A stretch of 64,000 bases of DNA, taken from the NCBI RefSeq assembly GCF_028993555.1, contig NZ_CP118611.1, positions 676,001 through 740,000 of the forward strand, written 5' to 3'. This stretch comes from Ensifer adhaerens (GTDB lineage Bacteria; Pseudomonadota; Alphaproteobacteria; Rhizobiales; Rhizobiaceae). A program made the translations under genes and the position numbers. Shown here piece after piece: positions 42,009 through 60,100 of this stretch (position 1 is its first letter; the number at the start of each line of letters is the position of its first letter). The notes under the pieces were generated by a model. It was given only the letters and a program-made list of their open reading frames with translations. It had not been told where the DNA came from and did no database searches.

Positions 42009-43088
42009 TCAGTCTTTGAAGCCAATTGCTCGCTTGACGCCCGACTTGAACAGATATTCGGCCCGGGAAATTGGGAGCCGCTCGATGAATATCTCAGAAT
42101 AATCGTAGTGCACTGCTCCGAAACGCTCTTTGAAATGTGAAAGCGAAGCCGAATTGCCGCTCTCTCCGAGGTGATAGAAACGGCAGCCTGCCCGGCACGC
42201 ATCTTCGATGGAGAGTTTTTGTAAGAGGTCGTTGGCGCGCGACGTTCCCAGTGCAACCCGGTCGATTGCGCCGCGGGAGTCGTTCACATTCTTCCCCATC
42301 AGGACCAGGGACGCCGCGACGGGCTGTCCATTCACCCACGCTGCCCAGACTTTGCAAGACGCTCCGAGCGCTTCCTGGATCTGATAGAGTTTTTTGATGG
42401 GATCGCGTCTCCCGAAGCGGAACTTCGCCAGCCAGAGTGGTTCGTTTTGCTGTTCGGCCCACCTCTTGACTGAGGTCTTAAGCAAGTTGTGAAGGAGGGG
42501 GATCAACTCGCCGCTGCTGCTGCTCTTGACGATGACGGCCTCCCGCTCGGCCTTGCGGATACTCACCCTTGTCGCCTTGGTGAAGAGCTTGTTGTAGACG
42601 TGATCGAATCCATCTTTCAGATCGATAACGTGGGCGCGGCGCGGTTTCGTCATCAGACCCAGGCCGGCCGCCGCTTCGGACCATCGGCTACCCTGTAAGG
42701 GGTTGGGCCTGATACGAATGCTGAGGAAACGCAACGCAATGAGGTCTTTCAGGACTTCCCTGAGGTGGCGGCTGGTTGTGTTGTCGCAACACACGGCCCC
42801 GCCCATTCCGCAACCATCAGGATACGATCCCGCAACAAGGTCCACAGGTCCGATGGCAGTCATGGTCACGAGCGGAACCAAAATCTGGCATCCGTCTTCG
42901 AACTGGTAGTAGCGGCTGATGTCCTTGAGCCGACCCTCAGCGCATATGGCATTGTTCCACTCCGGCGATTGATATGGCATCGCGTCGGGGTCGTGAATCA
43001 TCAATTGCTTCCACGCATCACGTGGCGCGGGGCTCGTAACTCGATAGCAAATGGTGGATGTGATCCGGTCGTTGTAAATGTATTGCAT
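42009..43088 (-). CDS. FemAB/GNAT-like acyltransferase (copy 1)
   Basis: The ATG at 43088 is chosen (359 aa); a TTG at 43130 extends the frame. The protein has the double-GNAT FemAB-like layout: RIRPNPLQGSRWSEAA in the first half, HVIDLKDGFDHVYNKLF before an Arg/Lys-rich helix, then VWAAWVNGQPVAASLVLMG, YHLGESGNSASLSHFKERFG and VKRAIGF. The same blocks recur in the protein at 49899-50987 (RIRPNP/KIRPNP, YHMGETGNSASLAQFKSRFG). These enzymes transfer acyl or aminoacyl groups to amino-bearing acceptors. A role in decorating the polysaccharide is inferred from location. Confidence 0.78.
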   Translation of the reverse strand: MQYIYNDRITSTICYRVTSPAPRDAWKQLMIHDPDAMPYQSPEWNNAICAEGRLKDISRYYQFEDGCQILVPLVTMTAIGPVDLVAGSYPDGCGMGGAVCCDNTTSRHLREVLKDLIALRFLSIRIRPNPLQGSRWSEAAAGLGLMTKPRRAHVIDLKDGFDHVYNKLFTKATRVSIRKAEREAVIVKSSSSGELIPLLHNLLKTSVKRWAEQQNEPLWLAKFRFGRRDPIKKLYQIQEALGASCKVWAAWVNGQPVAASLVLMGKNVNDSRGAIDRVALGTSRANDLLQKLSIEDACRAGCRFYHLGESGNSASLSHFKERFGAVHYDYSEIFIERLPISRAEYLFKSGVKRAIGFKD

Positions 43089-43643
43089 TGGCCCAGTACG
43101 CAAAAAGAGTGGACACGCAAGAACAAGCAACTCATCTCGTGCAAATTACTCGTGCGGGATCCGACACTTAAGCGACGGCCGCGTAAAAACTAACAGTCCA
43201 GAAATCACTTCGTCAGAACAAACTACGCCATAGTATATATTACGTATGTTTTAATTTAAGGAAAGGGGGCCCTGGCAACAATCTCGCGGCTCCGCGGCCC
43301 AATATCCAGCAAAAATGATTCCCCCTCGTTGATACAAAGCGAGCCTAAGCACGGGAGCGGATGTGAAGTTTGGTGGGGCAGAGGAGGCGCGCTCCGGCGG
43401 CGGCAGGACAGGTGCACATTTGGCAGAGAACCGAACCGGAGCGTCCGCTACTTGTGCGCGAATAGACGCGTGGGCTTCGGAGGCTTGACTGCTTGGCAGC
43501 GAGAATGGAGGATTGAGTTGAGACACGGAGAGTGCCGGTCAGCTCACGGTTGACAACGAGGTGCTGGTTCGTTTGCAATCGGCTCGTGAGTGCGGGCTCT
43601 TTCTGGCAATATGTCGCGACAAAGTTCGCCGAGACCAGATGTC
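43089..43643. other. Divergent gap between acyltransferase copy 1 and the epimerase gene
   Basis: No recognisable gene. A strongly AT-rich patch at about 43225-43260, with near-palindromic TATATTACGTATG, probably contains promoter elements for one or both divergent genes. Short open frames in both directions look like chance. Confidence 0.35.
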
Positions 43644-44579
43644 ATGGGGAGAAACGGTTTGAGGACGATCTTGGTGACCGGGGGAGCCGGTTTCATTGGC
43701 TCGCATCTGACGCGACGATTGTTGGAAACCGGACGCGACGTTGTGGTGCTGGATGACCTGAGTTCAGGAAAGCGCGACAATGTGCCCAACGCAGCCAAGT
43801 TCATCAATGGCTCTATCCTGGATCGACAGGTGGTTCGCAGCGCGCTTCCCGGCGTCGATGCCTGCATTCACCTGGCCGCGGTCGCTTCGGTCGAAAAATG
43901 CAATCGGCAGCTGACGCATTCTCACGCCATCAATATTACCGGGTTCCTGAACCTGGTTGAGGAGATTGTGAACTCCGGCAACAAGCGGACAATAGTCTAT
44001 GCCTCTTCAGCCGCCGTTTACGGGGCCAGTCAGGACCTCCCGCTTTCAGAGGAGGGCAAGTGCGTGCCACTTTCGCCCTACGGTGCCGACAAGCTCTCGT
44101 GCGAATTGCATGCCCGGGCCGCCTATGAAGTCTACGGCCTCTCGACGACGGGTCTTCGCTTCTTCAACGTCTTCGGACCGGGCCAGGATCCGCAGTCACC
44201 CTATTCCGGTGTGATCACCAAGTTCGTGCAGCGGTTGAAAAACAACGAAGACATCGTGATCTATGGCGATGGCACGCAGACCCGCGATTTCGTTTACGTC
44301 GGCGACGTGGTCGAAGCGCTTATCCGGTCGGCGGATCGGGCTGCGAATGGCGCAAGGGTCTTGAACGTTTGCAGCGGCGTCGAGACATCGATCAATGACC
44401 TCGCGCGAATTATGATCGAGGAGACCAAGTCTGGTTGCGGCATCGCGCACGTGGATGGATTGCTCGGCGAAGTCAGGCGTTCCCAGGGGTGCACGCACGC
44501 ACTTGAAGCGGAGCTCGATCATCGATGCCGCACGGATCTTCGCGTTGGGCTGGCACAGTTGCTGGCGGGGCGGCAATAG
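43644..44579 (+). CDS. NAD-dependent sugar epimerase/dehydratase (GalE/WbpP-like)
   Basis: An extended-SDR protein with the cofactor motif TGGAGFIGSH, the active-site SSAAVYG and SPYGADK (Tyr-x3-Lys), and GLRFFNVFGPGQDP, all typical of UDP-sugar 4-epimerases. The start is either the ATG at 43644 or a TTG at 43659, which has GGGGAG six bases upstream and would give the usual MRTILVTGG N-terminus. It should supply a nucleotide sugar for the polysaccharide made by the surrounding genes. Confidence 0.85.
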   Translation: MGRNGLRTILVTGGAGFIGSHLTRRLLETGRDVVVLDDLSSGKRDNVPNAAKFINGSILDRQVVRSALPGVDACIHLAAVASVEKCNRQLTHSHAINITGFLNLVEEIVNSGNKRTIVYASSAAVYGASQDLPLSEEGKCVPLSPYGADKLSCELHARAAYEVYGLSTTGLRFFNVFGPGQDPQSPYSGVITKFVQRLKNNEDIVIYGDGTQTRDFVYVGDVVEALIRSADRAANGARVLNVCSGVETSINDLARIMIEETKSGCGIAHVDGLLGEVRRSQGCTHALEAELDHRCRTDLRVGLAQLLAGRQ

Positions 44580-44661: not shown

Positions 44662-46536
44662 TCAATGGTACCGGTTGCCAAGGGCGCTGCCGTCCGACGT
44701 CGCGGGCAGCATACGAAACACTTTCGCATTGGCCGATGCCCGCACAAGCTTGAATCGCGGTGAGACAAGCAAGTTGTGCTCGATCCGGTCGAAGTCGCCC
44801 GGCCGCATTTGGCCGTTGGCTTCGAGAGACGCTTTCTGGCTGCGCGTCAGGATCACGTAGGCGTCGCGCCAGCGCGGGTTGTCCATCCATCGCAAAAAGA
44901 CGCCGGATGAGTTGGCGACGATTTCTGCTCTGGTGGCCTCCGACTCTAGCGAGATCGCCAAATAGTAGAAATTTTCGTAGTTCATGAACTGTGAAGGGTA
45001 GCTGCGCGAACCTTCGATGAGGAGGGTATCCTCGGGGGCTATGCTATAGAGCCACTCAGCCACGGCCACCTCGTCGGGCGCGAAACGATATTCGCGATCC
45101 TTGCCATTGTTGGCGAAAAGGAAGCCGATTGCCGAAAGGAAAAAGGCCGCTGCAAGTGGCGTAAAGACGTAGGCTGGCTTGCCAGCATGCACTGAGGGGA
45201 AGAACGCGGTGGCAGCAAAGAAAGCAAGGAAGGGAGATGCGAAAAGGTAGACGCGGAAAATCGACTCTCCGCCATACGCAACAGCTATGAGTGGCATCGG
45301 TGAAAGCAAGAGTGCCGCGGCGGTGAGGTCCCAGTGCCCATTTAAGATCCGCCGCGATCCGCCTAGGAGCGCGCCGACAATGACGGCGGCCGAAAGGCCG
45401 CGCCCGAGCAAGACGACCCAGGCGCGGTCGGCGCTCACGTCGGCAACATTTGCAAGCTTGCTCGTCGCTTCAGAGAGCGTACCCATCGAGGCCAATTCGC
45501 TCAAAATCTGCTCGTAGACGAAGGGCGCCGCTGGCCAGAGAAGCCAGACAATTTCGGCGATGATCGCAAAGAGCAGATAGGCCGGGGAAAGCCATCCGAG
45601 CACCGCCAATCCTGCTGTGGCGAGAATAATCATGAGCGGGGTCAACTGATGAGTGACCACCACCACGGAAATCAGCGTCATAGCGAGCAGGGCCGCAAGG
45701 GGACGAGCAAACCGGCCACCCGTCCACGAAGGCAGACCGGCTGGAAGTGCTTCTGGACCAATGAAACGCAGAAAGCCAGGCCTTCGCGCCGCCCATGTCG
45801 TTTCCCGTTTTCGCAACGGCCCGAGAAACAGCCCGATCAGGATGAGGTAACAGAGAAACGTGACGCCTTGCGGCGAGAAATATTCCTGGCCGACCCAGTT
45901 GGCCACGACGAATATCCAGCAAGCCGTCAGTTGAAGGCGACGGTCCGCAGAGAGCCGTTTGACAATTCCCAAGAACGCCCCGATCAGGGCAAGCGTGAGC
46001 ACAGGTGGGGTAAAACTGACGATCGGCGCGAGGTCGACCGATCTCAGGTCGAAGCGGTCCGCAAGCCAAGCCGTGGCCGCAAAGAGCCCGGGCCAATTGT
46101 GATAGGCTGCGAGGAAGGACGCATTCCGATCAACCGCGTCATACCGTTGGATGTAATCGATAACGCCGAGATGTTTCCAAGCCCAGGAATAGCGCAATGT
46201 TCCATAGACGATCGGTGGCGTCCCGTGCAGGAGGATCACGAGTGCGACCAGATAGAGGATTGGAAGCGGGCCGGTAGTCCGCCCCCCGCAGACCAGCCAC
46301 GCAAATCCAGCCGCCAGTAGCGCCAGTGACAGAAAAAAGCTTCGAGGCAAGACCGAAATCAACCCGATGTCGGTCATGCGGTCGGGGTCGATCGCCGGCA
46401 GCGATAAGGCCCAGAGCAGGACGGAAGCGGAGAGTATGACGGCAAGGGCCAGATCAAATCGCCGCGCCCGGCGTTGGGAGACCGCTTCCCCTTCTGTATC
46501 CAAGGCAATGTCTTCAACGCGGGAAAGGACGGTCAT
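44662..46536 (-). CDS. Large multi-span membrane protein, candidate polysaccharide polymerase
   Basis: The ATG at 46536 with GAGGAAGG upstream gives 624 residues; the longer frame is a shadow of the flippase gene. At least ten hydrophobic spans are visible, followed by a soluble C-terminal domain (about the last 130 residues). YFSPQGVTFLCYLILIGLF and YHNWPGLF resemble Wzy/GT-C-type membrane glycosyltransferases. With a Wzx-like gene directly upstream (5-bp gap), a Wzy-type polymerase or ligase is the best guess. The family is not firmly recognised. Confidence 0.65.
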   Translation of the reverse strand: MTVLSRVEDIALDTEGEAVSQRRARRFDLALAVILSASVLLWALSLPAIDPDRMTDIGLISVLPRSFFLSLALLAAGFAWLVCGGRTTGPLPILYLVALVILLHGTPPIVYGTLRYSWAWKHLGVIDYIQRYDAVDRNASFLAAYHNWPGLFAATAWLADRFDLRSVDLAPIVSFTPPVLTLALIGAFLGIVKRLSADRRLQLTACWIFVVANWVGQEYFSPQGVTFLCYLILIGLFLGPLRKRETTWAARRPGFLRFIGPEALPAGLPSWTGGRFARPLAALLAMTLISVVVVTHQLTPLMIILATAGLAVLGWLSPAYLLFAIIAEIVWLLWPAAPFVYEQILSELASMGTLSEATSKLANVADVSADRAWVVLLGRGLSAAVIVGALLGGSRRILNGHWDLTAAALLLSPMPLIAVAYGGESIFRVYLFASPFLAFFAATAFFPSVHAGKPAYVFTPLAAAFFLSAIGFLFANNGKDREYRFAPDEVAVAEWLYSIAPEDTLLIEGSRSYPSQFMNYENFYYLAISLESEATRAEIVANSSGVFLRWMDNPRWRDAYVILTRSQKASLEANGQMRPGDFDRIEHNLLVSPRFKLVRASANAKVFRMLPATSDGSALGNRYH

Positions 46537-46541
46537 GCTTT

Positions 46542-49067
46542 CTAGGCCTTCCTCGTGGATCCGACGGGGACCGGGTGGGGTGACGTCGCACTCGCACTGC
46601 CTTTTTGCCGACGGAGGCAGCCGACTGCAAGCGTGTGCGGCGCTACGGACACCTTGCCGCCGTACCAGGCTAGGACGAGGTCGATGTTGACCGCCAGCCA
46701 CAGCGCCTTGTCTGCAAAGCAAGATGATTTGGTCAGATTGGTAGCGATGTGGTGCCACCAGGCGAATCCACACAGTGCGCGCAATACGGCAGGATCCGAG
46801 AGTGCGCCGTAGCTCTCCTCCAGCGTGGCACGCATTGGTTCCATAGCTGTCATTTCCTCAGGAGTGAGAAGTGGCGCTTCAAGGAGGCGGCGAATGACAA
46901 AACCGAGGTCCTCACCGCTGCGCGCCGCGCGTGCGGTCAGCAGCAGGAACATTGCATCCAGGCCTGGTGGGGTGTCCTCGGTGGCAGTCTCCCAGTCAAT
47001 AATGGCGCTCAGCCGGACATCTGTTTCATCAGGACCAATTGTATAAAGCAAATTTCCTGGCGCGAAATCACCATGCCCGAGGCCGAGGGGCAGCGAGCGG
47101 CCGTTCCAAAAATGGGATTGCTGCGCTTGAAAGACCGCGAGCGCCTCAGCGCGGCCAGGCTCGCCCAACAGTGGCGAGTGCGACGCGCACACGGTGTCGG
47201 ATCCAAAGTGGAGCCAGCCGTCCAGCCAGCCCTCATTGATGACCCGCTTCGTTGCTGTGCGCGAATGCATCGTGTGGATGGCGTCTACCGCTTGGGTGAG
47301 CGCGGCAAGATACTGTTCGGACTTGGCGAAAATCGAACGACCATCCTCGCCCGGCAGCGCGCGTTCTGCGAGCCTTGCCCCGGATGCGTCGATGGAACTC
47401 GCGACGATCGTGGAAACCGCGAAGTCTAGCTGACCAAGCGCGGCGTTGGCGGCGAGCTCCTGGCTGCTTTTGATGTGGCGGGTGACGGCGCGGTGTCCCT
47501 CTGGAGAAGTCGACGCCTTGAAGACCAGCAATTCTGCGGGAGGGCCGGCCGTCCGGAACATGCCGGTTCGCACATCGCTCTCACGGTAGAACTCGCGCAC
47601 GGTTTGCGGATCCGGTGCCTCAAGCCCCGTCGCGGCGCAGAAGCTGGCAATCGAAGCATCGAGGGGCGGTGAGGAATGCCGACGAGGTGCGATGTTGCTC
47701 CAGATCCGCGCCAGCGAAGATAGCAAGCGCAGTGTCAGATCGATCCGGCCGGATGGTCCGAGACGTCGCGACAGGTCTGTCAGCAGGCCGACAGCAGTTA
47801 TGCTGTGGGCAATAAACCAGGCTGCCGCCATCCCGACTGCGCCATGGACGACGACAAGCGGAGTGCCAATCCCAAGCACGACGGCTAGCGTTACCACTTG
47901 TGCCAGTGCGACGACCTGTGTCCGGCCCGTCGCACGCGCGACGGCGAGTATAAGCGTCACGACGCTCCAAGGCAGGCACGAAATGGCGAATAATCGCAGC
48001 AGCGTCGAATTCGTTCCTGAAGCATTCATGCCGAGCACCGACAGGAGCAGCGGCGCAGCAATGAGCAATACGAATACTACGCCCGCCAACGGCGCGACGG
48101 TGTAGATGAGGGCATCGACGGCGAGACGATGTAGCTTCGTCTTGTCGAACGCGATCTCGGCCAGGAGAGAGACGCCCATCGAACGGCTGATGAGGTAGAC
48201 GCCGTAGACGATTTCCCAGCTGATATAGTAGACAGCCAGATTGGCGGAGCCGCCGTAGTGGAGCACAATGAGTGGCGCGATCCCCATTGCCGTCATCGAA
48301 GCGAGAGTTCCCAGGTAGTCCCAGCCAAAATAGCGGGTGAGTGCCTGGCGGTCGGGTTTCTGGGCGTCGCCGCTTGTGCGGTGCCGCGGAAGAAAGCGAA
48401 TAAAAATCAGCCAATTGATGCCGGCCAACAAGAGCGGAAGCGGCAAGATCCACGCCGCATACAGTCCCGCGCCCAGGATGGATGAGCCTGCAAAGAGTGC
48501 CAGCAACAGCAGCTTGGCAACGGCGAATACGGCGTTTTCAATCGGGACGACCGTTGCGCGCCGCAAGCCGGCCAATACGCTGTCCTGCAGGGCAAAGAGC
48601 GTCCAGGCGATCGTCGCGACCACGAATGCGGCGGCAGAAACGGGTTGTTCCCTTAGGAAACTCAGTTCGGGTGTGACGCTGGAGATGAAGATGATGGCCA
48701 GCGTGGAAAGAAAGGCGGCCGCCGCGACCGCCAACGCATAGGCCCAAAGCACCAGACGAACCGCGCTGTCCTTTTCGCTCGCCGGCAGATAGCGGTTCAG
48801 AAAGTTGCCCATGTTGAGCTGGGAGATGTTCCCAAGCGCCAGCATGGTGGAGATCAGCGCAGCGCCAAGTCCTACTTGTTCGGGCGAGTAGAAGCGGGAC
48901 GCCAGTCCCCAGAAAACGAGCCCGAGTACCGAGGTAAGACCAGCACTCGCGACCAGGGCATAGCCGTTTTTCAGAAGCGACGAATGGGCAAGGGCCGCTA
49001 ACGCCGGATACGCCCGCGATATACGTGATATGAAGTCGGCGGTCTCTTGGTTTTTACGCTGCAACAT
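46542..49067 (-). CDS. Fusion: Wzx-type polysaccharide flippase plus aminoglycoside-phosphotransferase-like kinase
   Basis: An 841-residue protein in one uninterrupted frame. Residues about 30-445 form a 12-14-span MOP/Wzx flippase (GLASRFYSPEQVGLGAALIS, QLNMGNFLNRYLP). From about 480 to 790 it is soluble and contains the kinase motif HGDFAPGN (665-672) and the metal-binding D691 in IIDWETA, the Brenner and DFG-like motifs of the APH/choline-kinase fold. The flippase would export lipid-linked oligosaccharide; the kinase could phosphorylate a sugar, the lipid carrier or an amino-alcohol. The ATG overlaps the GH16 stop, so translation is coupled. Confidence 0.82.
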   Translation of the reverse strand: MLQRKNQETADFISRISRAYPALAALAHSSLLKNGYALVASAGLTSVLGLVFWGLASRFYSPEQVGLGAALISTMLALGNISQLNMGNFLNRYLPASEKDSAVRLVLWAYALAVAAAAFLSTLAIIFISSVTPELSFLREQPVSAAAFVVATIAWTLFALQDSVLAGLRRATVVPIENAVFAVAKLLLLALFAGSSILGAGLYAAWILPLPLLLAGINWLIFIRFLPRHRTSGDAQKPDRQALTRYFGWDYLGTLASMTAMGIAPLIVLHYGGSANLAVYYISWEIVYGVYLISRSMGVSLLAEIAFDKTKLHRLAVDALIYTVAPLAGVVFVLLIAAPLLLSVLGMNASGTNSTLLRLFAISCLPWSVVTLILAVARATGRTQVVALAQVVTLAVVLGIGTPLVVVHGAVGMAAAWFIAHSITAVGLLTDLSRRLGPSGRIDLTLRLLSSLARIWSNIAPRRHSSPPLDASIASFCAATGLEAPDPQTVREFYRESDVRTGMFRTAGPPAELLVFKASTSPEGHRAVTRHIKSSQELAANAALGQLDFAVSTIVASSIDASGARLAERALPGEDGRSIFAKSEQYLAALTQAVDAIHTMHSRTATKRVINEGWLDGWLHFGSDTVCASHSPLLGEPGRAEALAVFQAQQSHFWNGRSLPLGLGHGDFAPGNLLYTIGPDETDVRLSAIIDWETATEDTPPGLDAMFLLLTARAARSGEDLGFVIRRLLEAPLLTPEEMTAMEPMRATLEESYGALSDPAVLRALCGFAWWHHIATNLTKSSCFADKALWLAVNIDLVLAWYGGKVSVAPHTLAVGCLRRQKGSASATSPHPVPVGSTRKA

Positions 49068-49909
49068 CAGCCGTCGTCCCGCTGCCAGATTCTTACGTAG
49101 TCAATGAGATAGGTGGAGGGAAACTTCGTAGACTTGGGCGGAGAGCCCGCCCACTCTCCTCCAACCGCCAGATTGAGGAGCAGATACATCTCTTCGCTGG
49201 AAATCGTTGCGGCATCCGTGTGGCGCCAGACCTCCTTGCCGTCGAGGTACCAAATGATTTTATCTGCGTCCCAGGTCAGACTGTAGACGTGCCAGTTCGC
49301 CGTCAAGTCTGATGTCTCGATATCCTTTCCGACGCTCTTCTTCTCAGAGGCTGCATCGACGTAGTGGTAGTGCATCCGCAACGTGGAGGCGGAATCGCCA
49401 AGTACCTCCATGAGATCAATCTCCGGCCGGGATTCCCGTGTCTCCGGCAGGAGCCAGATCGCAGCCCAGAACCCTTTACCCGCGGGAACTTTCGCCTTGA
49501 CCTCGATGTGGCCATAGCGGAACCGCGTTCGCGATGGTCTTGGCAATTCGTCGTAGTCGCGTCCCGTGGTGACGATGCCGGACGTATAGTCGAAAGTGCG
49601 CCCCTCGATGCCCTTGACCTTTTGTCGCCGAGCGGTCAGCCGCAGGAGCCCTTTGGAAATCGAGACATTTTCCGGCCGGTACCATTGCAGTTCGGCGTTG
49701 CCGAGATTGGTACAGCCGTCCTTGTTCCACCAATAACAGGTGGTCCATTTTCCCCGGTCCAGTTTGGGGCCGTCGAAGTTATCCTCGAATATCAGCCGCC
49801 ACGAACCTTTGTCAGCGACCGGAGCCGGTCCGTCAGCACGTGCCGCAGGTAATGGAAGAAAGAGGGACAGAAGGACGGCTGCGATGGTGACCGATTGCCT
49901 AAGATGCAT
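49067..49909 (-). CDS. Secreted GH16 endoglycanase (ExoK/ExsH-like)
   Basis: The ATG at 49909 gives 280 residues with a signal peptide (TIAAVLLSLFLPLPAARA). The GH16 active site reads EIDLMEVLG with E163, D165 and E168 as nucleophile, helper and acid/base. GFWAAIWLLPE and WHVYSLTWD are further family blocks. Such enzymes cut beta-1,3/1,4-glucan-like exopolysaccharides and set their length. The start overlaps the upstream acyltransferase by 11 bases, and the stop overlaps the flippase start. Confidence 0.9.
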   Translation of the reverse strand: MHLRQSVTIAAVLLSLFLPLPAARADGPAPVADKGSWRLIFEDNFDGPKLDRGKWTTCYWWNKDGCTNLGNAELQWYRPENVSISKGLLRLTARRQKVKGIEGRTFDYTSGIVTTGRDYDELPRPSRTRFRYGHIEVKAKVPAGKGFWAAIWLLPETRESRPEIDLMEVLGDSASTLRMHYHYVDAASEKKSVGKDIETSDLTANWHVYSLTWDADKIIWYLDGKEVWRHTDAATISSEEMYLLLNLAVGGEWAGSPPKSTKFPSTYLIDYVRIWQRDDG

Positions 49910-50987
49910 CACGAAACCCCACCACGCGTTTAACGGTACTTCGAGCGAAGCTACCGATTCCTGCGAGCGGAAGACGCTCGTATCGATATTCCGCATAGGG
50001 AACGGCAACCGCACCGAAGCGAGATTTGAATTGCGCGAGAGAGGCAGAATTCCCCGTCTCACCCATGTGATAATACGTGCTGCCAAGCGCGCAAGCCTCT
50101 TCAATAGCGGTAGCCTGAAGCAGGTACGTGGCGCGGCTTTCGCCGGCGAGCCCCTCGTCGATCGCGCCGCGCGTATAATGGGCCTGATGATGCAGGAGAA
50201 CCAAAATTCCGGCAACGGGCCGGCCCTTGATGCGCGCGACATAGAGGCGAAAGCCCTCGCCGAGGTGGGTGGCCATTGCCGCGAACTTCGAACGAGGGTC
50301 GCGGCGCAGACCGCGGAAGCGCGCAAGTGCTGCCGGTTCATGCTGCCTGCGCGCCCAACGCAGCAAGGAAAGTTCGAGCAGGTCGTAAAACTCGTCGATC
50401 AACCGAGCACTGTTACCCGTTTCCACCTCCACGCCATATTTTTGTGCGCGTCGGATGTTGGTTCCTGCATTGGAACGGAAGCGACTTCGTACGGCCTCAA
50501 GGCCGCCTGACAGGTCGATGACATGTGCCGAACGCGGAATGGCCACCCAACCCGGTCGCGCAGCCTCTGCCCAAAGGCGCGCTGAGAGAGGGTTCGGCCG
50601 GATTTTGAGCCCGACAAACGGCAGCGTCTCAAGCTGACCGAGCACGGAACGCAGCTTGTCCGCCGTGATCTCTTCGTCGGAAAGCAGGCCGCCGAACCCC
50701 CAGGCCGGCGGCGGCGACCAACCGTAACGCAGCGAGGCGACGCCCCTGGCAAACAGTGGGAGCACGGAATGACTGCCGTCGGCAAATTGGAAGTACAGCG
50801 GATTACACCGGTAGTTGCCGGTGGCCGCGATTGCCTGTGCCCACTGTGGTGATTGGCTGGCGACCGCCGTCTGGTCGCGTTGGTAGAGATTGAGCCACAT
50901 GGCTTCGGGAGCCGGCCCACTGGATTCAATGAGGTGGCCAAAGGCGTTTGGGCCGATCGGTTGCGTCAATGCTGTCTCTGAACTCAT
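49899..50987 (-). CDS. FemAB/GNAT-like acyltransferase (copy 2)
   Basis: A 362-residue protein. Copy 2 heads the reverse operon with GH16, flippase-kinase and polymerase-like genes. It shows QSPQWAQAI, KIRPNPLSARLWAEAA, the basic helix FRSNAGTNIRRAQKYGVEVE, the GNAT-like RIKGRPVAGILVLLH and YHMGETGNSASLAQFKSRFG. It matches copy 1 (42009-43088) block for block and even ends in the same VKRVVGF. The two may add different groups to the same glycan. Confidence 0.8.
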   Translation of the reverse strand: MSSETALTQPIGPNAFGHLIESSGPAPEAMWLNLYQRDQTAVASQSPQWAQAIAATGNYRCNPLYFQFADGSHSVLPLFARGVASLRYGWSPPPAWGFGGLLSDEEITADKLRSVLGQLETLPFVGLKIRPNPLSARLWAEAARPGWVAIPRSAHVIDLSGGLEAVRSRFRSNAGTNIRRAQKYGVEVETGNSARLIDEFYDLLELSLLRWARRQHEPAALARFRGLRRDPRSKFAAMATHLGEGFRLYVARIKGRPVAGILVLLHHQAHYTRGAIDEGLAGESRATYLLQATAIEEACALGSTYYHMGETGNSASLAQFKSRFGAVAVPYAEYRYERLPLAGIGSFARSTVKRVVGFRDAS

Positions 50988-51223: not shown

Positions 51224-52207
51224 ATGACCAGGTTTCTGAGCGCTGCTTTGTTATGGTTGGCCGCCGTCCTGCCGGCGGCGGCCCAGTCTGTCGTTCTGGA
51301 TACCGACGAAATTCACGTACCCTATCTCGCCGACGCCCTCAAACAAGCATACCAGCTGCCGCTACTGGCCGACCTAGAGGCCACTCCGTCCGAACGAGAA
51401 GAGGCGCTTTCGACCGAGAAGGCGCGACTGCAAGGCGTGATCGCTGGTTTCGGCTATCTGGATGGGGACATGACTGAGGAGAAGCAGGGAACGCGAATAG
51501 TGCTTCGGCCGACGCTTGGTCATCTCTACAGGGTGACATCCGTCGAACTGAAAGGAATCCGACCGTCGGAACTGGGCCGCGAAGTCGTCGACAGACTGGC
51601 CTCGATCATCAACGACTTTGTCGGGCAGCCTGCGACGACTTTCGTTGCTGAGTCATTCACGCGGCGCATCCTGCAAACGGTCAGCGCGGAGGATTTCGCG
51701 CATGCACGACGGCGGGCAACGGACTGGGTCCGCAAGGGCGAGGGGATCGTGACTGCGGTTATCGATATCGACCTGGGTCCCCGCACCCGTTTCGGTGCCG
51801 TCCAGTTTAGCGGCGCGCTCCGGATGGAGTCCGAGCTCCAGGACCTCGTTCCCTTCCGCTCAGGCGAACGATACAGCGCCGCTCTGGTCGAACAACTGCG
51901 CCGTAACATCGAGGCTCTTGAGACGGTGAAGTCTGTAAATGTCGCCGTCGGAAAGGATGAGGAAGGGCTGCTTCCGATTGATGTTCGGATACGTGAAGCG
52001 CCTGCAAATCTCGAAACGCTCCGCCATACGAATCCGCTCGACGTTGGAAGCGGCCTCGTCGCGATGGCCGGCCTTCTGCTCGTTCAGGTGGGGATGCAGG
52101 CCGGCACCCCACGATCCAGGCTGCGCCCCATCATCTGGATCACCAGCGTCTGCGTGGTGATATTCGCCATTTTGGCCACCCTTCGACTGGTCAGCTTTCT
52201 TGCTTGA
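51224..52207 (+). CDS. TamA-like POTRA protein lacking the beta-barrel
   Basis: The ATG at 51224 gives 327 residues with a signal peptide (FLSAALLWLAAVLPAAAQ). The rest shows consecutive POTRA-like repeats: VIAGFGYLDGDMTEEKQGT..., GHLYRVTSVELKGIRPSE, then GPRTRFGAVQFSGALRM with LVPFRSGERYSAALVEQLRR. These match the POTRA region of TamA/BamA-type proteins. A barrel of several hundred residues should follow, but the protein ends with one C-terminal hydrophobic helix (IWITSVCVVIFAILATLRLV). It may be a periplasmic scaffold for glycan export or for the Sel1 protein. Confidence 0.75.
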   Translation: MTRFLSAALLWLAAVLPAAAQSVVLDTDEIHVPYLADALKQAYQLPLLADLEATPSEREEALSTEKARLQGVIAGFGYLDGDMTEEKQGTRIVLRPTLGHLYRVTSVELKGIRPSELGREVVDRLASIINDFVGQPATTFVAESFTRRILQTVSAEDFAHARRRATDWVRKGEGIVTAVIDIDLGPRTRFGAVQFSGALRMESELQDLVPFRSGERYSAALVEQLRRNIEALETVKSVNVAVGKDEEGLLPIDVRIREAPANLETLRHTNPLDVGSGLVAMAGLLLVQVGMQAGTPRSRLRPIIWITSVCVVIFAILATLRLVSFLA

Positions 52208-52542: not shown

Positions 52543-53310
52543 CAGCCTCTCTTGCCTTTGATTTGCATCGTGATCTCAACATCATGTGTTGTTTTGCAAC
52601 ATACGCGATTCCCGGTTCATGCGCCATCAATCTTGCAGTCTTTGTCGATCGCGAACAGCCGTTACGTGCGCACGATTACGGAATTTCAATGAGTTAGTCA
52701 GGCGTCTCTACGCAGCGCCGCAAGGTGCTGCATGCGGTCCATTCGCGCCAGAACGGCGCAGAATGCGTCGCAAGCTATCCTCTAGTGCAAGAGTGACGCA
52801 GATATTACGATCACGGTAACGTGCGTCGACGGACCCACCCAGATGCCCTTCGCGAAGTGGTTTTGCTTCTCATGGAGCGTCGGAGAGCCTCTGTATTTAA
52901 GTTATCCATGATATTGTGATTTGTGTTTTGATTTACGGAAAATGCGTCGCTTTTCAGAAAAAAATATAGGGTGCAAATATAAAATCGCCGGAGAAATTAA
53001 GCCAACAAGAGAATATGTTTCCCATAAATTTTCATGAGTGGGCATATTCAGCGCGTTATACTATGACATAATTCTGCAATAAAAGGGCATGGTGCCGCCA
53101 TTCTTCCAATAATTCAAAAAAAATAACGACTTGTTCTCTAGAATGCTCTTTTTCAAGAAAAGCATGTGGTAGTTTACAAAGTTAGAATATTGTAATAAAA
53201 CTGAATACGTACAAGTAAATACAAACTTTTTCCCTTCCAAAGCCTTGTGTGTGACCGGGGCCGGAAGCTTATTGTTTTCATTTTTTTTAGTTGGAGGATT
53301 TTTAAGCAAA
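52543..53310. promoter_or_regulatory. Long AT-rich leader before the glycosyltransferase operon
   Basis: About 770 bp without a recognisable gene. The part from about 52890 to 53300 is far more AT-rich than the rest of the window, with A/T runs and many -10-like hexamers; for example TTTACA at about 53173 is followed 17 bases later by TAAAAC. GGAGG at 53293-53297 is the ribosome binding site for the GT2 gene, with a long spacer. The length suggests a multi-input promoter or a long 5' untranslated region. Confidence 0.5.
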
Positions 53311-54102
53311 ATGGGCGAGCATTTTCCCAATTCGTTAAGAGCGGCCCTGCGTCCGTCCGGCATGGACAGGGCCATCATCGTCCCCAGGGTCAGCGTCATT
53401 GTTCCAACGGTAAATGAGGCGAAAAACCTACCGCACGTCCTTCCACGCATTCCCGCCTGGATAGACGAGGTCATCCTTGTCGATGGCAACTCTTCTGATG
53501 GAACTGTTGCCATTGCACGTGAACTCATGCCCGACATCGTCGTGATTGAACAGCCGCGCCTCGGAAAAGGGGTCGCACTTGCCGCTGGTTTCGCGGCGGC
53601 CCGCGGCGACATCCTCATTACTCTTGATGCCGATGGTTCAGCGGACCCGGAGGAGATGGCTGGTTTTGTGGGAGCGTTGCTTGCGGGGGCCGATTTCGTC
53701 AAGGGGTCGCGTTTCCTGCAGGGCGGCGACACGCGTGACATGGAGTGGTACCGGCGCCTCGGGAACTGGGGTTTGCTGCAACTGGTGCGCCTGCGCTTCG
53801 GCGGCCGCTATAGCGATCTTTGCTACGGCTACAATGCCTTCTGGCGTGACGTTCTACCCCATTTGCGGGTCGAATCCGCGACCGGTTTCGAGATCGAAAC
53901 GCAGATGAACATCCGCGCACTGCAGGCAGGCCTCGCTATTGCGGAACTTCCAAGCCGAGAATATGCGCGGATCCATGGTGTCAGCAACCTGCGCACGATT
54001 CCCGATGGCTGGCGGGTGCTGAAAACAATTGCCCGGCTAGGCCTCAGCCAACGCAGTCGCGCTGGTGCCGTCGTTAGAAACCGTACTCAGCGGGCAGGTT
54101 GA
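53311..54102 (+). CDS. Family 2 glycosyltransferase (dolichyl-phosphate-mannose-synthase type)
   Basis: The ATG at 53311 gives 263 residues. It has VSVIVPTVNEAKNLPHVL, VDGNSSDGT and the DxD-bearing LDADGSADPEEM, then GSRFLQGGDTRDMEWYRRLG and CYGYNAFWRD, blocks shared with DPM-synthase-like GT2 enzymes. There is no C-terminal membrane domain, so it acts at the cytoplasmic face, probably loading a sugar onto a lipid carrier. It begins the forward operon and is followed closely by the double glycosyltransferase. Confidence 0.88.
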   Translation: MGEHFPNSLRAALRPSGMDRAIIVPRVSVIVPTVNEAKNLPHVLPRIPAWIDEVILVDGNSSDGTVAIARELMPDIVVIEQPRLGKGVALAAGFAAARGDILITLDADGSADPEEMAGFVGALLAGADFVKGSRFLQGGDTRDMEWYRRLGNWGLLQLVRLRFGGRYSDLCYGYNAFWRDVLPHLRVESATGFEIETQMNIRALQAGLAIAELPSREYARIHGVSNLRTIPDGWRVLKTIARLGLSQRSRAGAVVRNRTQRAG

Positions 54103-54110
54103 GGCCTGCC

Positions 54111-56279
54111 ATGTCTTCGATTGCGGTTGTGATTTGCGCTTATTCCAATGAGCGCCGCCCGCAACTGGGCGACGCTATCGACTCGGTATTGAAACAGACC
54201 CTGCGAGCCGACCGGCTCATCGTCGTCATCGACCACAACGACGACTTGCTGCGGGAGATGCGTAGGTCGTACGCCGGTATCGAGGTTGTCGCCAATGATG
54301 GGGCGCGAGGCCTATCGGGCGCTCGAAACACCGGCGTGCGTACCGCCGCGTCCTGCGACATCATTGCGTTTCTCGACGATGACGCTGTCGCCGAGGCCAA
54401 CTGGCTGGAACGGCTTGCGCTACACTATGCCGTCCCGCAGGTTATCGGCGTCGGCGGCAAGGTGCTGCCGCTTTGGCCAGGCAAGCGACCGCGCTGGTTC
54501 CCCGAAGAGTTCCAGTGGGTGGTTGGCTGCAGTTACAAGGGTCTCCCGAACGCGCTGAGCCCGGTTCGCAATCCGATCGGTTGCAATATGTCGTTTCGGC
54601 GGACGGTCTTCGATGCCGTTGGCGGCTTTCGCGAGGGTCTCGGTCGCAGTGGCCAGGATGCCGCCGGGTGCGAGGAAACAGAGTTTTGCATTCGCGCGCG
54701 CCGGCACTTCCCCACAGCAGTCATTCTTTGCGATCCGCAAGCGGTGGTTCATCACAACGTTACCGCGGAAAGAACGCGGTGGGCCTACTTCCGCAGACGA
54801 TGCCAGGCTGAAGGACGTTCGAAGAATGCGGTGGTCGAGATCGCAGGAGCGGAGGAGAAGCTTGGCGCCGAGCGTGCCTATGTCACCCGCACCTTGCCGG
54901 CCGGCGTGGTTCGCGGCCTGACGGATATGGTGACGCGGCTTGATCCTTCGGGGCCGATGCGGGCGTTCACGATCGTCGCGGGGTTCATGTTTACGACGGC
55001 AGCTTATCTCGCCGCAAAATTCTCCAGACACGTAAGCCCCTTCCGCCCCGTCAAGATTGTCGACGTCGATTATACTAAGCCGCTTCCGGCGATCGATCTC
55101 ACGCGGCCGGGTGACGTGTCCTATGGCGGCATCTTCTGTCTGGTCCGCTCTGGGGCCCAGCCGCTCGCAATTGTCGAATTGCAGCATTCTGGCCCCGTGA
55201 TCGAACCCGCAGATCTGCTCTTGGAGATCGGCGCCGCGCGCTCCTTGCCGTCGGTTGCGGCCTGCCGCACGGCCGCGCTTGAAAGGGTGGCAGTGGTGAT
55301 TGCGACGCGCGATCGCGCGGAGAGCCTGGATCGCTGCCTCGCGTCGCTCTTTGACCAGACCCGTGCGCCCGACGAAGTGCTTGTGGTAGACAACGCACCG
55401 GCCTCGACGGCAACGGTGGATCTGATTTCGACGCGTTACCGTGGACGGGTGCACTATGTGCTTGAGCCGACCCCGGGGCTCGGACGCGCGCACAATACCG
55501 GCCTGCGCTACGTGTCGAGCGACATCGTTCTCTTTACCGATGACGACGTGGTGCTCGACCAGCATTGGGTCGAGGCGATGGCAGCACCGATGGAAGAGGA
55601 TAAGGCAGTCGGTTGCGTGACGGGTCTGATCCTGCCGGCTGAACTCGAAACTCGGGCGCAAGTCTGGACGGAACGGCACGGAGGCTTCGGGAAAGGTCTG
55701 CAACGCCGCGTTTTCGATCTGGAAGCGAACCGGCCCAGAAGCATGCTCTTTCCCTTCACCGCCGGCCAGTTCGGCTCGGGTGCGAACATGGCTTTCCGGG
55801 CGAGTGCGTTGCGTCGGGTCGGCGGTTTCGACGCGGCGCTTGGCGCTGGAACGGTGGCGCGCGGCGGCGATGACCTTGCCGCGTTCTTCGCCATCGTCAA
55901 CGGCGGCTTCCGACTTGTCTACCAGCCTCAGGGCATCATCTGGCACCACCACCGCCGTGGCGAAGAAGGCATGCGTCGGCAGGCCTATTGTTATGGCATG
56001 GGGCTCGGCGCCTATCTGACGAAGATCGTTGTCGACGAACCGCGCCGGGCTCTTCGGCTTGCCGCCGCATTTCCAGCCGGCATCCTCCACATGGCCGGGC
56101 CGACGTCGCAGAAGACTGCGCGGCTACCCAGCGACTATCCGCTGCGGCTCGTCTGGATGGAGCGCCTCGGCATCCTTGCGGGTGTACCGGGCTATTTGCG
56201 CAGCCTCGCGAAACGGCGGCGCGACGACCGGCCGCAAACCGGCATTGACGCGAGGCGACCAGCCGAAAGAGAGGTTTGA
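54111..56279 (+). CDS. Bifunctional double GT2 glycosyltransferase
   Basis: The ATG at 54111 with GAGG at ideal distance gives 722 residues containing two complete GT2 units. The first (about 1-250) has VVICAYSNERRPQLGDAIDS and the DDD metal site in AFLDDDAV; the second (about 395-660) has VVIATRDRAESLDRCLASL, PGLGRAHNTGL and LFTDDDVV. A short linker (DVDYTKPLPAIDLTRPG) joins them. Two catalytic domains in one chain suggest alternate addition of two sugars, as in repeating-unit synthases. The deacetylase gene follows by one base. Confidence 0.88.
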   Translation: MSSIAVVICAYSNERRPQLGDAIDSVLKQTLRADRLIVVIDHNDDLLREMRRSYAGIEVVANDGARGLSGARNTGVRTAASCDIIAFLDDDAVAEANWLERLALHYAVPQVIGVGGKVLPLWPGKRPRWFPEEFQWVVGCSYKGLPNALSPVRNPIGCNMSFRRTVFDAVGGFREGLGRSGQDAAGCEETEFCIRARRHFPTAVILCDPQAVVHHNVTAERTRWAYFRRRCQAEGRSKNAVVEIAGAEEKLGAERAYVTRTLPAGVVRGLTDMVTRLDPSGPMRAFTIVAGFMFTTAAYLAAKFSRHVSPFRPVKIVDVDYTKPLPAIDLTRPGDVSYGGIFCLVRSGAQPLAIVELQHSGPVIEPADLLLEIGAARSLPSVAACRTAALERVAVVIATRDRAESLDRCLASLFDQTRAPDEVLVVDNAPASTATVDLISTRYRGRVHYVLEPTPGLGRAHNTGLRYVSSDIVLFTDDDVVLDQHWVEAMAAPMEEDKAVGCVTGLILPAELETRAQVWTERHGGFGKGLQRRVFDLEANRPRSMLFPFTAGQFGSGANMAFRASALRRVGGFDAALGAGTVARGGDDLAAFFAIVNGGFRLVYQPQGIIWHHHRRGEEGMRRQAYCYGMGLGAYLTKIVVDEPRRALRLAAAFPAGILHMAGPTSQKTARLPSDYPLRLVWMERLGILAGVPGYLRSLAKRRRDDRPQTGIDARRPAEREV

Positions 56280-56280
56280 C

Positions 56281-57111
56281 ATGCAAACTATCCCGATCCT
56301 GGTCTATCACAGTGTCGGTCGCGATTGCGCTTCGGCCTACCGACGCTGGCTGGTGACGGAGCCGGAGTTGGATGCACATCTCCAGGCCCTGACGCAGCGC
56401 GGTTACCGCTCGATGACGGTTTGCGACCTCGCGCTGTTGCGTTGCAGCGGACAGCCGATCCCTCCGCGGACCTGCGTTATTACCTTCGACGATGGCCTTC
56501 GCGACTTTGCAGAAGGCGCAATGCCTGTTCTGGCCGACCGCAGGTTCGCCGCCACACTCTACGTGGCCACCGGTTTCGTCGGTGCGACCGCAGGATGGCT
56601 TGCCGATCTCGGTGAGGGCAACCGCCCGATGCTCGACTGGAGCGCGTTGCGTGACCTGCACGATGCAGGTGTCGAGATTGGCGCGCATTCCGTGAGCCAT
56701 CCCGAACTCGATACGCTGCCCTTCGCAAGGGCCACGAGCGAGCTTCGTGATAGCAAAAGGGCTCTGGAAGACGGTTTGGGCGCAGCGGTTACCACGTTTG
56801 CATACCCTCATGGCTACGCATCGCGAGAGACGCGCAGGATTGCTAAAGAGGCTGGATACCTTGCGGCCTGCCGTGTTCGTCATGCGCTCAGCGATGAGAC
56901 GGAAAATCTCTTCGCGCTGTCTCGCATTGTTGTCACCAGTGAAGTGACGCCGGACTCGCTCTTGGATATGATCGAGACGCCGCAGCTTCCCGTTGCGCCG
57001 CCAGTCGATCGGCTGATTGCCACCGGTTGGCGTGCTGCAAGGCGCATGCGCGCCCTGCATCGGTCGGTGTTTCCAAGACGCGACGTGGCCGGGTCAGAAA
57101 GTGGGGCATGA
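56281..57111 (+). CDS. NodB-type polysaccharide deacetylase
   Basis: A 276-residue protein with the metal-dependent deacetylase motifs: CVITFDDG (D70 base, D71 metal), HSVSH (H136 and H140) and FAYPHG. It starts MQTIPILVYHSVG, as cytoplasmic or membrane-associated family members do, without a signal peptide. It removes N- or O-acetyl groups from a glycan or its lipid-linked unit, exposing amines that the GNAT-like enzymes could acylate. Its stop overlaps the start of the Sel1-repeat gene. Confidence 0.9.
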   Translation: MQTIPILVYHSVGRDCASAYRRWLVTEPELDAHLQALTQRGYRSMTVCDLALLRCSGQPIPPRTCVITFDDGLRDFAEGAMPVLADRRFAATLYVATGFVGATAGWLADLGEGNRPMLDWSALRDLHDAGVEIGAHSVSHPELDTLPFARATSELRDSKRALEDGLGAAVTTFAYPHGYASRETRRIAKEAGYLAACRVRHALSDETENLFALSRIVVTSEVTPDSLLDMIETPQLPVAPPVDRLIATGWRAARRMRALHRSVFPRRDVAGSESGA

Positions 57112-60100
57112 TGAGTTCCCCGGGCTGGATCGGCCTTGTCGCCGTTGGTCTTCTCTGGGCCGGGTCGGCGTCGGCCGCCGAGCCGGAAACCTCCGCGAAC
57201 AGTCTTCGACCGCAAAGCGACGGCACAGACGCAGCGCAGTCGGGTGTTTTCCAACCCAACCTCGGTCGAGCATTGGCGCAACTGGCTGATCTCTATATGG
57301 CCCGCCGGGTCGACACCGCAACCGTGGATCGGCTGCTTGGCGAATACGAGAGCATGCTGCGCAACGCCGGACCGGATGCGATTGTCGCAGTATCGCAGCC
57401 GAAGGCCTCAAGTGAAGTCGTCAAGGAAGATCCCGACGGCTCCCGCGTTCTTAAGCTTTACGAGCGCGCGGCCACTTACGGCTACAGAGGGGCGCTCATC
57501 GGTCTCGCGGATCTCTACAGTCGTGGCGAACTCGTGCCTCGCAATCTCGAGAAGGCATTTGCTGCTTATGTCGAAGCAGCAAAACAGGGAATCCCTGCGG
57601 CGCAGTTGCGGGTTGCGGAACTGATGATCCGTGGAGAGGGCACAAAACACGACGCAACGGCAGGCGAGGCCAGCCTTCGCGTGCTCTCTGATTCTGATAA
57701 TCCCGGCGTGCTCGAGCAATTGGCGGAGCTTTGCCTTTCCGGGCGCATACCGGAACAGACGGATCTCGCGGTTTCGGCGCTTCACAAGGCCGCAGGCCTG
57801 GGTTCCGCGAGGGCGCACTTCAGGCTTGGCGAGCTTTACTACGCCGGAACGGTCCTTGCTTCGGACTACGCCGCCGCGCTCGTTCACTATCGCCTGGCTG
57901 CGGAACAGGGAAATGTGGAGGCCAAGGTTCGGCTTGCCGAAATGCAGGCGCGCGGTCAGGGCATGGGCCGCGATGTGACGAAGGCGATCAGCGAACTGCA
58001 GGCTCTGGCTGATCTCGGCGCGCCATTTGCCGACCTCTCCCTTGGAAGTCTCTATCTGAAAGGCGATGTCGTGCCGGCCGACCCGGTTCGTGCGGCGCAA
58101 TATTACCGTCAGGCCGCCGCCCAAGGCAGTGGGACGGCGCTGATGCAGCTTGGAGACCTCTACGCGGACCAGGGAGCGGTGAACGGCGACTATGGTCCAG
58201 CGGTCAGAAGCTATGAACAGGCTGCAGCGGTCGGTAATGTCGGAGCAAGAGTGCGGCTTGCGGAGATGAAGGCGAGGGGGCGCGGGATGCCGCGGGATCT
58301 GGCCGCGGCGACAACGGAGCTGATGACGCTTGCAAGTGCGGGAGAAGCTGGTGCCTCTCTGGCGCTCGGCGACCTCTTTGGCGAGGGGCGGGCGCTGGCG
58401 ATCGAGCCTGCAAGGGCCCTGATCTATTACCGCCAGGCGGCCGCTCAAGGCAGCGTCACGGCTTTGCTCCGGCTTGGCGAATTCCATTCGGAAGGCGATT
58501 TGTCCCGACCAGAATACGGGCGGGCGGTGGAATACTATCGTACGGCGATCGCCAGGGGGAGCGTCAGCGCGAAGGTACGGTTGGCCGAGATGAAGGCGAT
58601 GGGCCGAGGGATGACGCGCGATGTTGCCGCCGCAAAGGTCGAACTGGAAGACCTTGCGGCCCACGGTGAGGGGGAGGCATCACTTCTTCTGGGTGATTTC
58701 TACGCGCAAGGGGATGTCATGCCTGGCGACGCTGCCCAAGCCTGGCTCCACTACCGGCGCGCGGCCGATCAGGGTAGCGTTGCGGCGTTGACGCGACTTG
58801 GGGATTTTTACTCCGCGGGCGGGGCGGCCAAGCCAGATTATGCACTCGCCCAGGATTATTACCGCCGCTCCGTCAGCCGGGGGAGTGTCGGCGCGCAAGT
58901 GCGGCTTGCAGAAATGCTGGCTCACGGACAGGGCGCCGTTCAGAACGTCTCGTCGGCAACTCGTACCTTGATGGCGCTTGCCGAACGTGGGGAACCGGCC
59001 GCTGCCCTTAGCCTGGGCGACCTCTACTACGTCGGAGAGGTCGCAAGGGCGGATCCGGCACGCGCAACCACGTATTACCAACAAGCTGCCGCGCTCGGAA
59101 GCATAACGGCCCTGCTTCGGCTGGGTGATCTATACACCACGCAGGGCGCGCTAACGGGCGACTATCGGGCGGCAATAGTAAGCTACGAACAGGCGGCCGC
59201 CAGAGGAAATGCTGGCGCGAAGGTGCGGCTTGCGGAAATGAAGGCAAGGGGACGCGGCACCGTGCAAGACGTGGCCGCCGCGAAAGCCGAGCTGGATGCT
59301 CTGTCGTCGGCGGGGGACGCTGGCGCGTCTCTGTCGCTTGGCAATCTGTATAGCGATGGACAGGCGATGCCGGCCGAGCAGGCTCAAGCGGTCGTCTATT
59401 ATCAGAAGGCAGTTGCACAAGGCAGCGTCACGGCGCTTCTTCGGCTCGGCGACTTTTACTCCGAAGGTGATCGGTCCGCTGCCGACTACGCCCACGCGAT
59501 GGAGTTCTATCGCAAGGCCGCAGATAAAGGAAATGTCGGCGCGAAGATACGGGTCGCTGAGATGAAGTCGCGAGGGCGCGGGTCCAACCAGGACATCGCC
59601 GCCGCGAAAGCGGAACTCGAGCGGCTTGCGGCCGAGGGCGAGGCCGATGCGTCACTGGCCCTCGGCGATCTCTATGGCAGGGGCGGCGTCGTCACGTTCG
59701 ATCCAGAGCAAGCGCTGCGCCAGTATCGGCGGGCCGCCGACGGGGGCAGCGTGACCGCCTTGTTGCGGCTTGGTGATTTTTATTCCCAAGGTCAGCCGAC
59801 GATGATCAACTTCGGACTTGCGCAGGACTTTTACCGTCAGGCGGTCGGCCGGGGGAACGTGAACGCCAAGATCCGGCTGGCTGAAATGCTGGCGCGTGGG
59901 CAGGGTGTTGCTCGGGACGTGGAGGCCGCGACACGAGAACTGACCGAGCTCGCGCAGCGGGGTGAGACGGCTGCGGCTCTCGCCTTGGGCGACCTTTACG
60001 GCAGGGGGGAGGCCGTGCCGGTCAATCCGATCCAAGGATTGCAATACTATCGCCAAGCAGCCACCCAGGGCAGCATGACCGCGTATTTGCGTCTGGGCGA

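Follow-up and report, generated by a model that had tools for sequence, protein, structure and literature searches.

A flippase-like protein fused to an APH-type kinase in an Ensifer adhaerens glycan locus, and its conserved membrane partner

How MOP flippases recognize and drive lipid-linked sugars is still debated, and a gene of Ensifer adhaerens raises the question of what a kinase might do when it is built into such a flippase. The gene (46542..49067, minus strand) lies in the window that we analyzed, a 64,000-nucleotide stretch of contig NZ_CP118611.1, and forms a single open frame of 841 codons starting at an ATG. An initial annotation of this DNA had read its product as a flippase joined to an APH-like kinase, had proposed that the kinase could couple phosphorylation of a glycan, of the lipid carrier, or of a decoration to export, and had suggested a domain search of the C-terminal part together with a survey of genomes for the same fusion and for split neighbors. 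Our preferred reading, a serious possibility that still falls short of an even chance, is that the kinase would act ahead of flipping, phosphorylating a lipid-linked glycan at the cytosolic side of the membrane.

Profiles built from the fusion's own relatives placed a flippase domain at residues ~29 to 435 of the 841-aa protein and a kinase domain at residues ~482 to 802. Residues 535 to 713 matched the Pfam APH family (PF01636) well above its curated cut-off (48.9 versus 23.2 bits; E = 9.4e-13), and the same profile, aligned over the kinase motifs, matched 36 of 36 aligned homologs (E ≤ 0.01); an NCBIfam scan of the fusion protein assigned no family. All of the expected kinase landmarks are present in the fusion (P0001), namely, the HGDxxxxN motif (HGD at 665 to 667 and N672), which we take to be the catalytic loop, the later D691, presumably the metal-binding residue, and K517, presumably the lysine of the N-lobe. 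The initial annotation was thus correct about both the two-part protein and its intact motifs.

Despite the name of the APH family, a role in antibiotic resistance was rejected on context, since the gene sits in a glycan locus, no resistance neighbor was found among the ORFs scanned, and the protein is widely conserved. The nearest solved structures identified by sequence profile, all of which matched only the kinase half, were macrolide, aminoglycoside, and capreomycin phosphotransferases and the kinase domain of ACAD11. That these relatives act mostly on small molecules counts against a glycan as the substrate, and it favors instead a kinase that acts in the cytosol on a free sugar, an amino sugar, or some other small precursor of a decoration, with the tether keeping the pathway enzymes together. 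We consider this alternative somewhat unlikely, in part because of how the fusion is distributed (see below).

To follow the active site across the family, we used 84 kinase-profile rows, some of which represent the same gene twice (as a protein and as a locus); 81 of them extend over the catalytic loop. All 81 keep HGD and the asparagine after it, D691 was kept in 76 (four rows have glutamate and one has histidine, the latter being a weak and probably unrelated match), and K517 was kept in 73 (seven arginines and one histidine). Given these frequencies, an active enzyme has apparently been selected in most relatives of the fusion. The four rows with glutamate at position 691 come from L082, L083, and L004/L084 (the last pair being the same place twice), three genomes of the family to which the window belongs, and also have arginine at position 517. 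Because both residues are replaced, kinase activity may be lost or altered in L082 to L084, and these rows would count against a universal catalytic role for the domain.

A regulatory domain, which would sense ATP or phosphorylate the flippase or its partners, could accommodate these three genomes, which may hold a degenerate kinase, and it has a precedent in mycobacterial MurJ, a known flippase with a kinase-fold tail, since this C-terminal pseudokinase reportedly recruits FhaA (PMC6180346). The retention of every catalytic residue in most rows argues against such a role, as do the best Pfam match being to APH rather than to a Ser/Thr protein kinase family and the lack of an FHA-like partner among the window ORFs scanned, and we hold it to be quite unlikely.

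If the kinase acts on a lipid-linked glycan before flipping, it should face the cytosol. Hydropathy averaged over 36 homologs gave 12 hydrophobic peaks in the flippase half, with positive charge alternating between loops, and no hydrophobic peak in the kinase half. Since the positive loops alternate, both ends of the flippase, and hence the kinase, should lie on the cytosolic side, in agreement with the ~12 helices and cytosolic ends expected of a Wzx/PST flippase of the MOP superfamily, as judged by simple hydropathy rather than by a topology program. The match of this half to Polysacc_synt (PF01943) fell below the cut-off (19.3 versus 28.2 bits; E = 8e-4), and only 5 of 36 homologs matched that profile at an E value of ≤0.01; we therefore call this half flippase-like and do not assign it to PF01943.

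A chance join or a frame artifact was ruled out, because the fusion architecture was seen in 54 of the 64 proteins kept by a full-length search, the kinase profile being only partly matched in one of them (P0021). In this search, the 8,000 candidates sharing the most words with the query were scored within a length limit of 0.55 to 1.75 times the query, so that flippase-only proteins shorter than ~463 aa were left out. One protein counted as unfused, P0051, ends just inside the start of the kinase and by eye may be truncated. A flippase-only search, in which the 8,000 most word-sharing candidates of ~240 to 765 aa were scored and fusions were thus mostly left out, kept 24 proteins, 23 of them without a kinase. 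The nearest kinase-free relative in both searches was P0065 (44% identical); P0021 is closer but has part of the kinase. Three members of the flippase family carry other enzymes: P0059 is fused to what appears by eye to be a nucleotidyltransferase and thymidylate-kinase-like pair, and the fused partner in P0060 and P0061 is a GT2 or an OafA-type acyltransferase. A pair similar to that of P0059, with Pfam scores below the cut-off, occurs as a separate gene adjoining an APH kinase (L030:187-1461). The family seems prone to carrying decorating enzymes.

Among 46 loci from named genomes, the fusion was present in 15, a related kinase was encoded elsewhere in the locus by a gene of its own in 4, and no kinase could be seen in 27, several of which are on short contigs. 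The expectation that most homologs would keep the C-terminal domain was therefore borne out for close relatives, which retain the kinase, and failed for the wider flippase family, which mostly lacks it. The 15 fused loci were found in Hyphomicrobiales (including Shinella, Ensifer, Sinorhizobium, Mesorhizobium, and Devosia), in three Nocardioides, and on single contigs from metagenome bins labeled Thermomicrobiales, Caldilineaceae, Anaerolineales, Truepera, and Doudnabacteria (Chloroflexota, Thermomicrobiota, Deinococcota, and Doudnabacteria at the phylum level), although outside the Hyphomicrobiales all but the Nocardioides loci come from such bins. Closer to home, a same-genus match was found in Ensifer sp. 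Root278 (L008), Sinorhizobium fredii USDA 205 (L010) also has the locus, and full-length matches were present in 3 of 15 other genomes of the genus and in 5 of 297 genomes of the family, including the window's own. Plasmid records gave five matches, of which three spanned 80% or more of the query (Sinorhizobium fredii CCBAU 83666, Shinella zoogloeoides, and Rhizobium sp. RCAM05350); the annotations on the matching records held nothing informative. Given this spread over groups and its low frequency within the family, the fusion is, on the sequences compared, old or well travelled, and patchy.

These data also bear on the small-precursor alternative. Free-standing relatives were not found among the 8,000 candidates scored in a kinase-only search at an E value of ≤0.001 (a search limited by shared five-residue words), and the fusion recurs in several phyla, both of which speak against a kinase that is merely held near its pathway. 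Nevertheless, the genome survey also turned up separate-gene kinases in loci L022, L030, L042, and L044, those of the last three being more distant relatives and lying further away in the locus, so the fusion is not always needed, as the alternative would have it. In L022, a separate kinase gene lies next to those for GH16 and for a relative of the partner protein described below; a run of N breaks the flippase/GH16 stretch, which makes a flippase/kinase split likely rather than proven there. Flippase and kinase identities are strongly correlated (Mantel r = 0.91 for 36 proteins, with 0 of 2,000 permutations as high), which likewise disfavors the small-precursor alternative, although shared ancestry alone would give such a value, and the correlation shows joint inheritance rather than function. 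In a FastTree tree of 129 flippase domains, 67 of them fused, the kinase state needs five changes; rows shorter than ~330 residues (P0009, P0021, P0022, P0057, L001, and L008) were left out.

The genes around the fusion were compared in a table of 50 loci (L005 to L050 and L082 to L085), comprising 18 fused loci and 32 others, from which L081 (a copy of L007) and L001 to L004, L051 to L080, and L086 (short, repeated, weak, or empty) were omitted. Upstream of the fusion in the window is a gene for a 280-aa GH16 glycanase with a hydrophobic, signal-like N terminus (49067..49909, minus strand), whose probable start, chosen by eye, is at 49909 rather than at the first start codon of the ORF (50341). 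Its stop overlaps the start of the fusion at 49067 in the sequence TGATG, in keeping with the translational coupling that had been noted. Its start in turn is overlapped by 11 bases by a gene for a clear FemAB/GNAT-like transferase (49899..50987, minus strand). Since these genes and the one that follows the fusion overlap or nearly touch on the same strand, FemAB1, GH16, the fusion, and P0088 look like one operon. The second FemAB-like enzyme that had been proposed (42009..43130, minus strand) scores below the Pfam cut-off (20.7 versus 22 bits) and, used as a query, retrieves the FemAB1 genes of related loci.

GH16 was found in 15 of 18 fused loci and in 15 of 32 others (12 of the latter below 40 bits), and FemAB was found in 15 of 18 and 0 of 32, respectively. 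The profiles behind these counts derive from the same loci, and some genes counted as missing lie beyond the ends of short contigs; for FemAB, whose profile came from the fused loci, divergent members in other loci may have escaped the search. A tie between FemAB and the kinase was not significant when kinship was allowed for: only five independent pairs were available, too few to reach significance, and they went the same way in 1.6 on average and the other way in 0. The kinase-deacetylase and kinase-GH16 comparisons also came to five pairs each, too few for significance. One fused locus (L007) has no FemAB, GH16, or deacetylase that we could find, and no FemAB was found in L022, where the kinase is separate.

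The gene that follows the fusion encodes P0088, a 624-aa membrane protein (44662..46536, minus strand) whose ATG lies five bases from the stop of the fusion. A P0088 relative was found directly downstream on the same strand in all 18 fused loci, and in 12 of the 32 nonfused loci, two of which (L022 and L044) have a separate kinase; the family, which the initial annotation had overlooked along with the AglJ/AglG-like glycosyltransferases and the triple fusions, is thus the most constant partner of the fusion. P0088 relatives also form the third domain of flippase-kinase-P0088 triple fusions in nine proteins (P0017, P0022, P0040, P0043, P0044, P0045, P0048, P0054, and P0057), two of which have a shortened flippase. 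By hydropathy, the family has ~14 hydrophobic peaks followed by a soluble C terminus, and residues invariant over 17 sequences include HQLTP and W-P motifs. The family is conserved across phyla. We found no credible relative of P0088 in Pfam, NCBIfam, or the PDB, and it could not be identified as a known GT-C transferase or Wzy polymerase, as neither a profile nor a solved structure matched credibly; its context nonetheless suggests that it may be a polymerase or a GT-C transferase.

The P0088 family also helps to place the kinase. Four proteins (P0058, P0062, P0063, and P0064) join the flippase to P0088 without a kinase domain, and in 10 loci that pair a flippase with a P0088 relative, no kinase was found within the part of the locus examined. 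Because such arrangements exist, the kinase looks like an accessory, that is, an optional added step that would not be part of flipping itself.

Which lipid the glycan would be built on is suggested by the plus-strand genes. Four of them run consecutively, divergent from the minus-strand genes: a GT2 of the AglJ-like, polyprenyl-phosphate hexosyltransferase type (53245..54102, true start uncertain); a double GT2 with an AglG-like N half and an MftF-like C half (54099..56279); a PgaB/IcaB-like polysaccharide deacetylase (56281..57111, taken from the first ATG before the domain); and a large Sel1-repeat protein with a signal-like N terminus (57108..64000, continuing past the end of the window to 64277). 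The best NCBIfam matches of the first gene and of the N half of the second were AglJ (TIGR04182; 114 versus a cut-off of 325 bits) and AglG (NF041394; 266 versus 440 bits), both below the score for membership. AglJ-like genes were found in 12 of 18 fused and 11 of 32 other loci, AglG-like genes in 12 of 18 and 15 of 32, and the deacetylase in 12 of 18 and 3 of 32. Bac_transf and Wzz had three and five matches genome-wide, respectively, and none within the window, where the Bac_transf initiator and Wzz of a canonical Wzx/Wzy locus are thus missing. Since AglJ- and AglG-like enzymes are present and Bac_transf and Wzz are not, the comparison suggests that polyprenyl monophosphate may be the lipid on which the locus assembles its glycan, as it is in haloarchaea.

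Other plus-strand genes of the window encode a member of the NAD-dependent sugar epimerase/dehydratase family (43590..44579) and a POTRA-like protein (51224..52207, start chosen by eye) with a signal-like N terminus and a C-terminal hydrophobic span, which scored just under the Pfam POTRA cut-off (20.9 versus 21.3 bits) and whose family occurred in 10 of 18 fused loci, all 10 proteobacterial, and in 0 of 32 others. The Sel1-repeat protein, beside the glycosyltransferases, has ~2,390 residues, with relatives in five other loci, all proteobacterial. Large proteins whose C-terminal part resembles a HAD hydrolase were seen inside related glycan loci (L044:11357-14032 and L014:6034-8892).

A locus that seems to use polyprenyl phosphate and that encodes a membrane-bound kinase might also be expected to phosphorylate the polyprenol itself, recycling or charging the carrier next to the flippase. 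This account sits poorly with the flippase-P0088 fusions that have no kinase domain, and the known undecaprenol and dolichol kinases have, to our knowledge, other folds. We regard it as highly improbable and judge the carrier to be the least likely of the three substrates originally proposed.

Returning to phosphorylation of the lipid-linked glycan, the locus could be pictured as a glycan-export module in which the AglJ-like and AglG-like glycosyltransferases would build a glycan on polyprenyl phosphate in the cytosol, and the deacetylase and FemAB-like enzyme would trim or decorate it. The kinase domain would then add a phosphate to the lipid-linked glycan at the cytosolic face just before flipping, the flippase domain would carry the charged glycan across the membrane, and the P0088-family protein would polymerize or transfer it outside, where GH16 would trim the product. 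Sequence comparison establishes the two domains, the intact catalytic residues, the predicted cytosolic side, and the conserved neighbors; from these we infer what the kinase phosphorylates, in which order the steps run, which carrier is used (a lipid monophosphate), and what P0088 does. Phosphorylation coupled to export is plausible on this evidence, and the locus context supports the decorated polysaccharide that had been envisaged. A bolder and rather improbable extension would be an Agl-like bacterial export system on polyprenyl monophosphate, in which glycan phosphorylation by the flippase's own kinase would serve as an ATP-paid license for flipping, and flippase, kinase, and outer transferase would work as a single machine, joined in some bacteria into one polypeptide.

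With a kinase that is part of the flippase and seems to be active, the fusion makes it possible to test directly whether flipping is controlled by a chemical mark that the cargo carries. Its locus further suggests a bacterial glycan pathway with neither an initiating phosphoglycosyltransferase nor Wzz alongside, has an uncharacterized membrane protein family as its constant partner, and raises the possibility of phosphorylated polysaccharides in plant-associated and soil bacteria.

No published description of a flippase-APH kinase fusion was found in the open-access literature among the matches listed, and the closest known systems each share part of the arrangement. The AglJ and AglG enzymes of Haloferax act on dolichol phosphate, and AglR and AglS come in at later steps (PMC3871713). 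The locus resembles this Agl system (AglJ, AglG, AglR/Agl15, and AglS) in its AglJ/AglG-like enzymes, its flippase candidate, and its outer-face transferase step (PMC3871713). It differs in being bacterial and in AglJ/AglG scores that fall below the NCBIfam cut-offs, and its product is probably a polymer rather than an N-glycan. We know of no kinase in the Agl pathway.

Glycan kinases do have precedents. The animal kinases POMK and Fam20B phosphorylate glycans (PMC5142810 and PMC5865150), and WbdD adds phosphate to the terminal mannose of a glycan linked to polyprenol (PMC3482155). Like the kinase proposed here, WbdD acts on such a glycan before export, a likeness of function; in contrast, it works with ABC-transporter export, and its fused partner is a methyltransferase rather than the exporter (PMC3482155). 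The wps-1 locus of Actinoplanes likewise combines genes for a flippase, for glycosyltransferases, for a glycoside hydrolase, and for the kinase-like WpsI, and wpsI mutant sporangia are squashed like those of wpsG (Wzx) and wpsJ (Wzy) mutants, so that a Wzx/Wzy locus can depend on a kinase-like protein (PMC13390465). WpsI is, however, a free protein, compared with our kinase by its description, and wps-1 has a Wzz (PMC13390465); the window has neither Wzz nor Bac_transf.

An architectural parallel is mycobacterial MurJ (MviN), whose proposed cargo is lipid II and in which a MOP-type flippase likewise ends in a cytosolic domain of the kinase fold (PMC6180346). The MurJ domain is a pseudokinase (PMC6180346), whereas that of the fusion is of the APH type with intact catalytic residues, in a locus for another glycan; the missing catalytic residues that define a pseudokinase are present in P0001 and most of its relatives. 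Fusions of flippases to kinase folds are therefore already known as a kind, and what matters more may prove to be the P0088 family together with the bacterial locus of Agl-like type.
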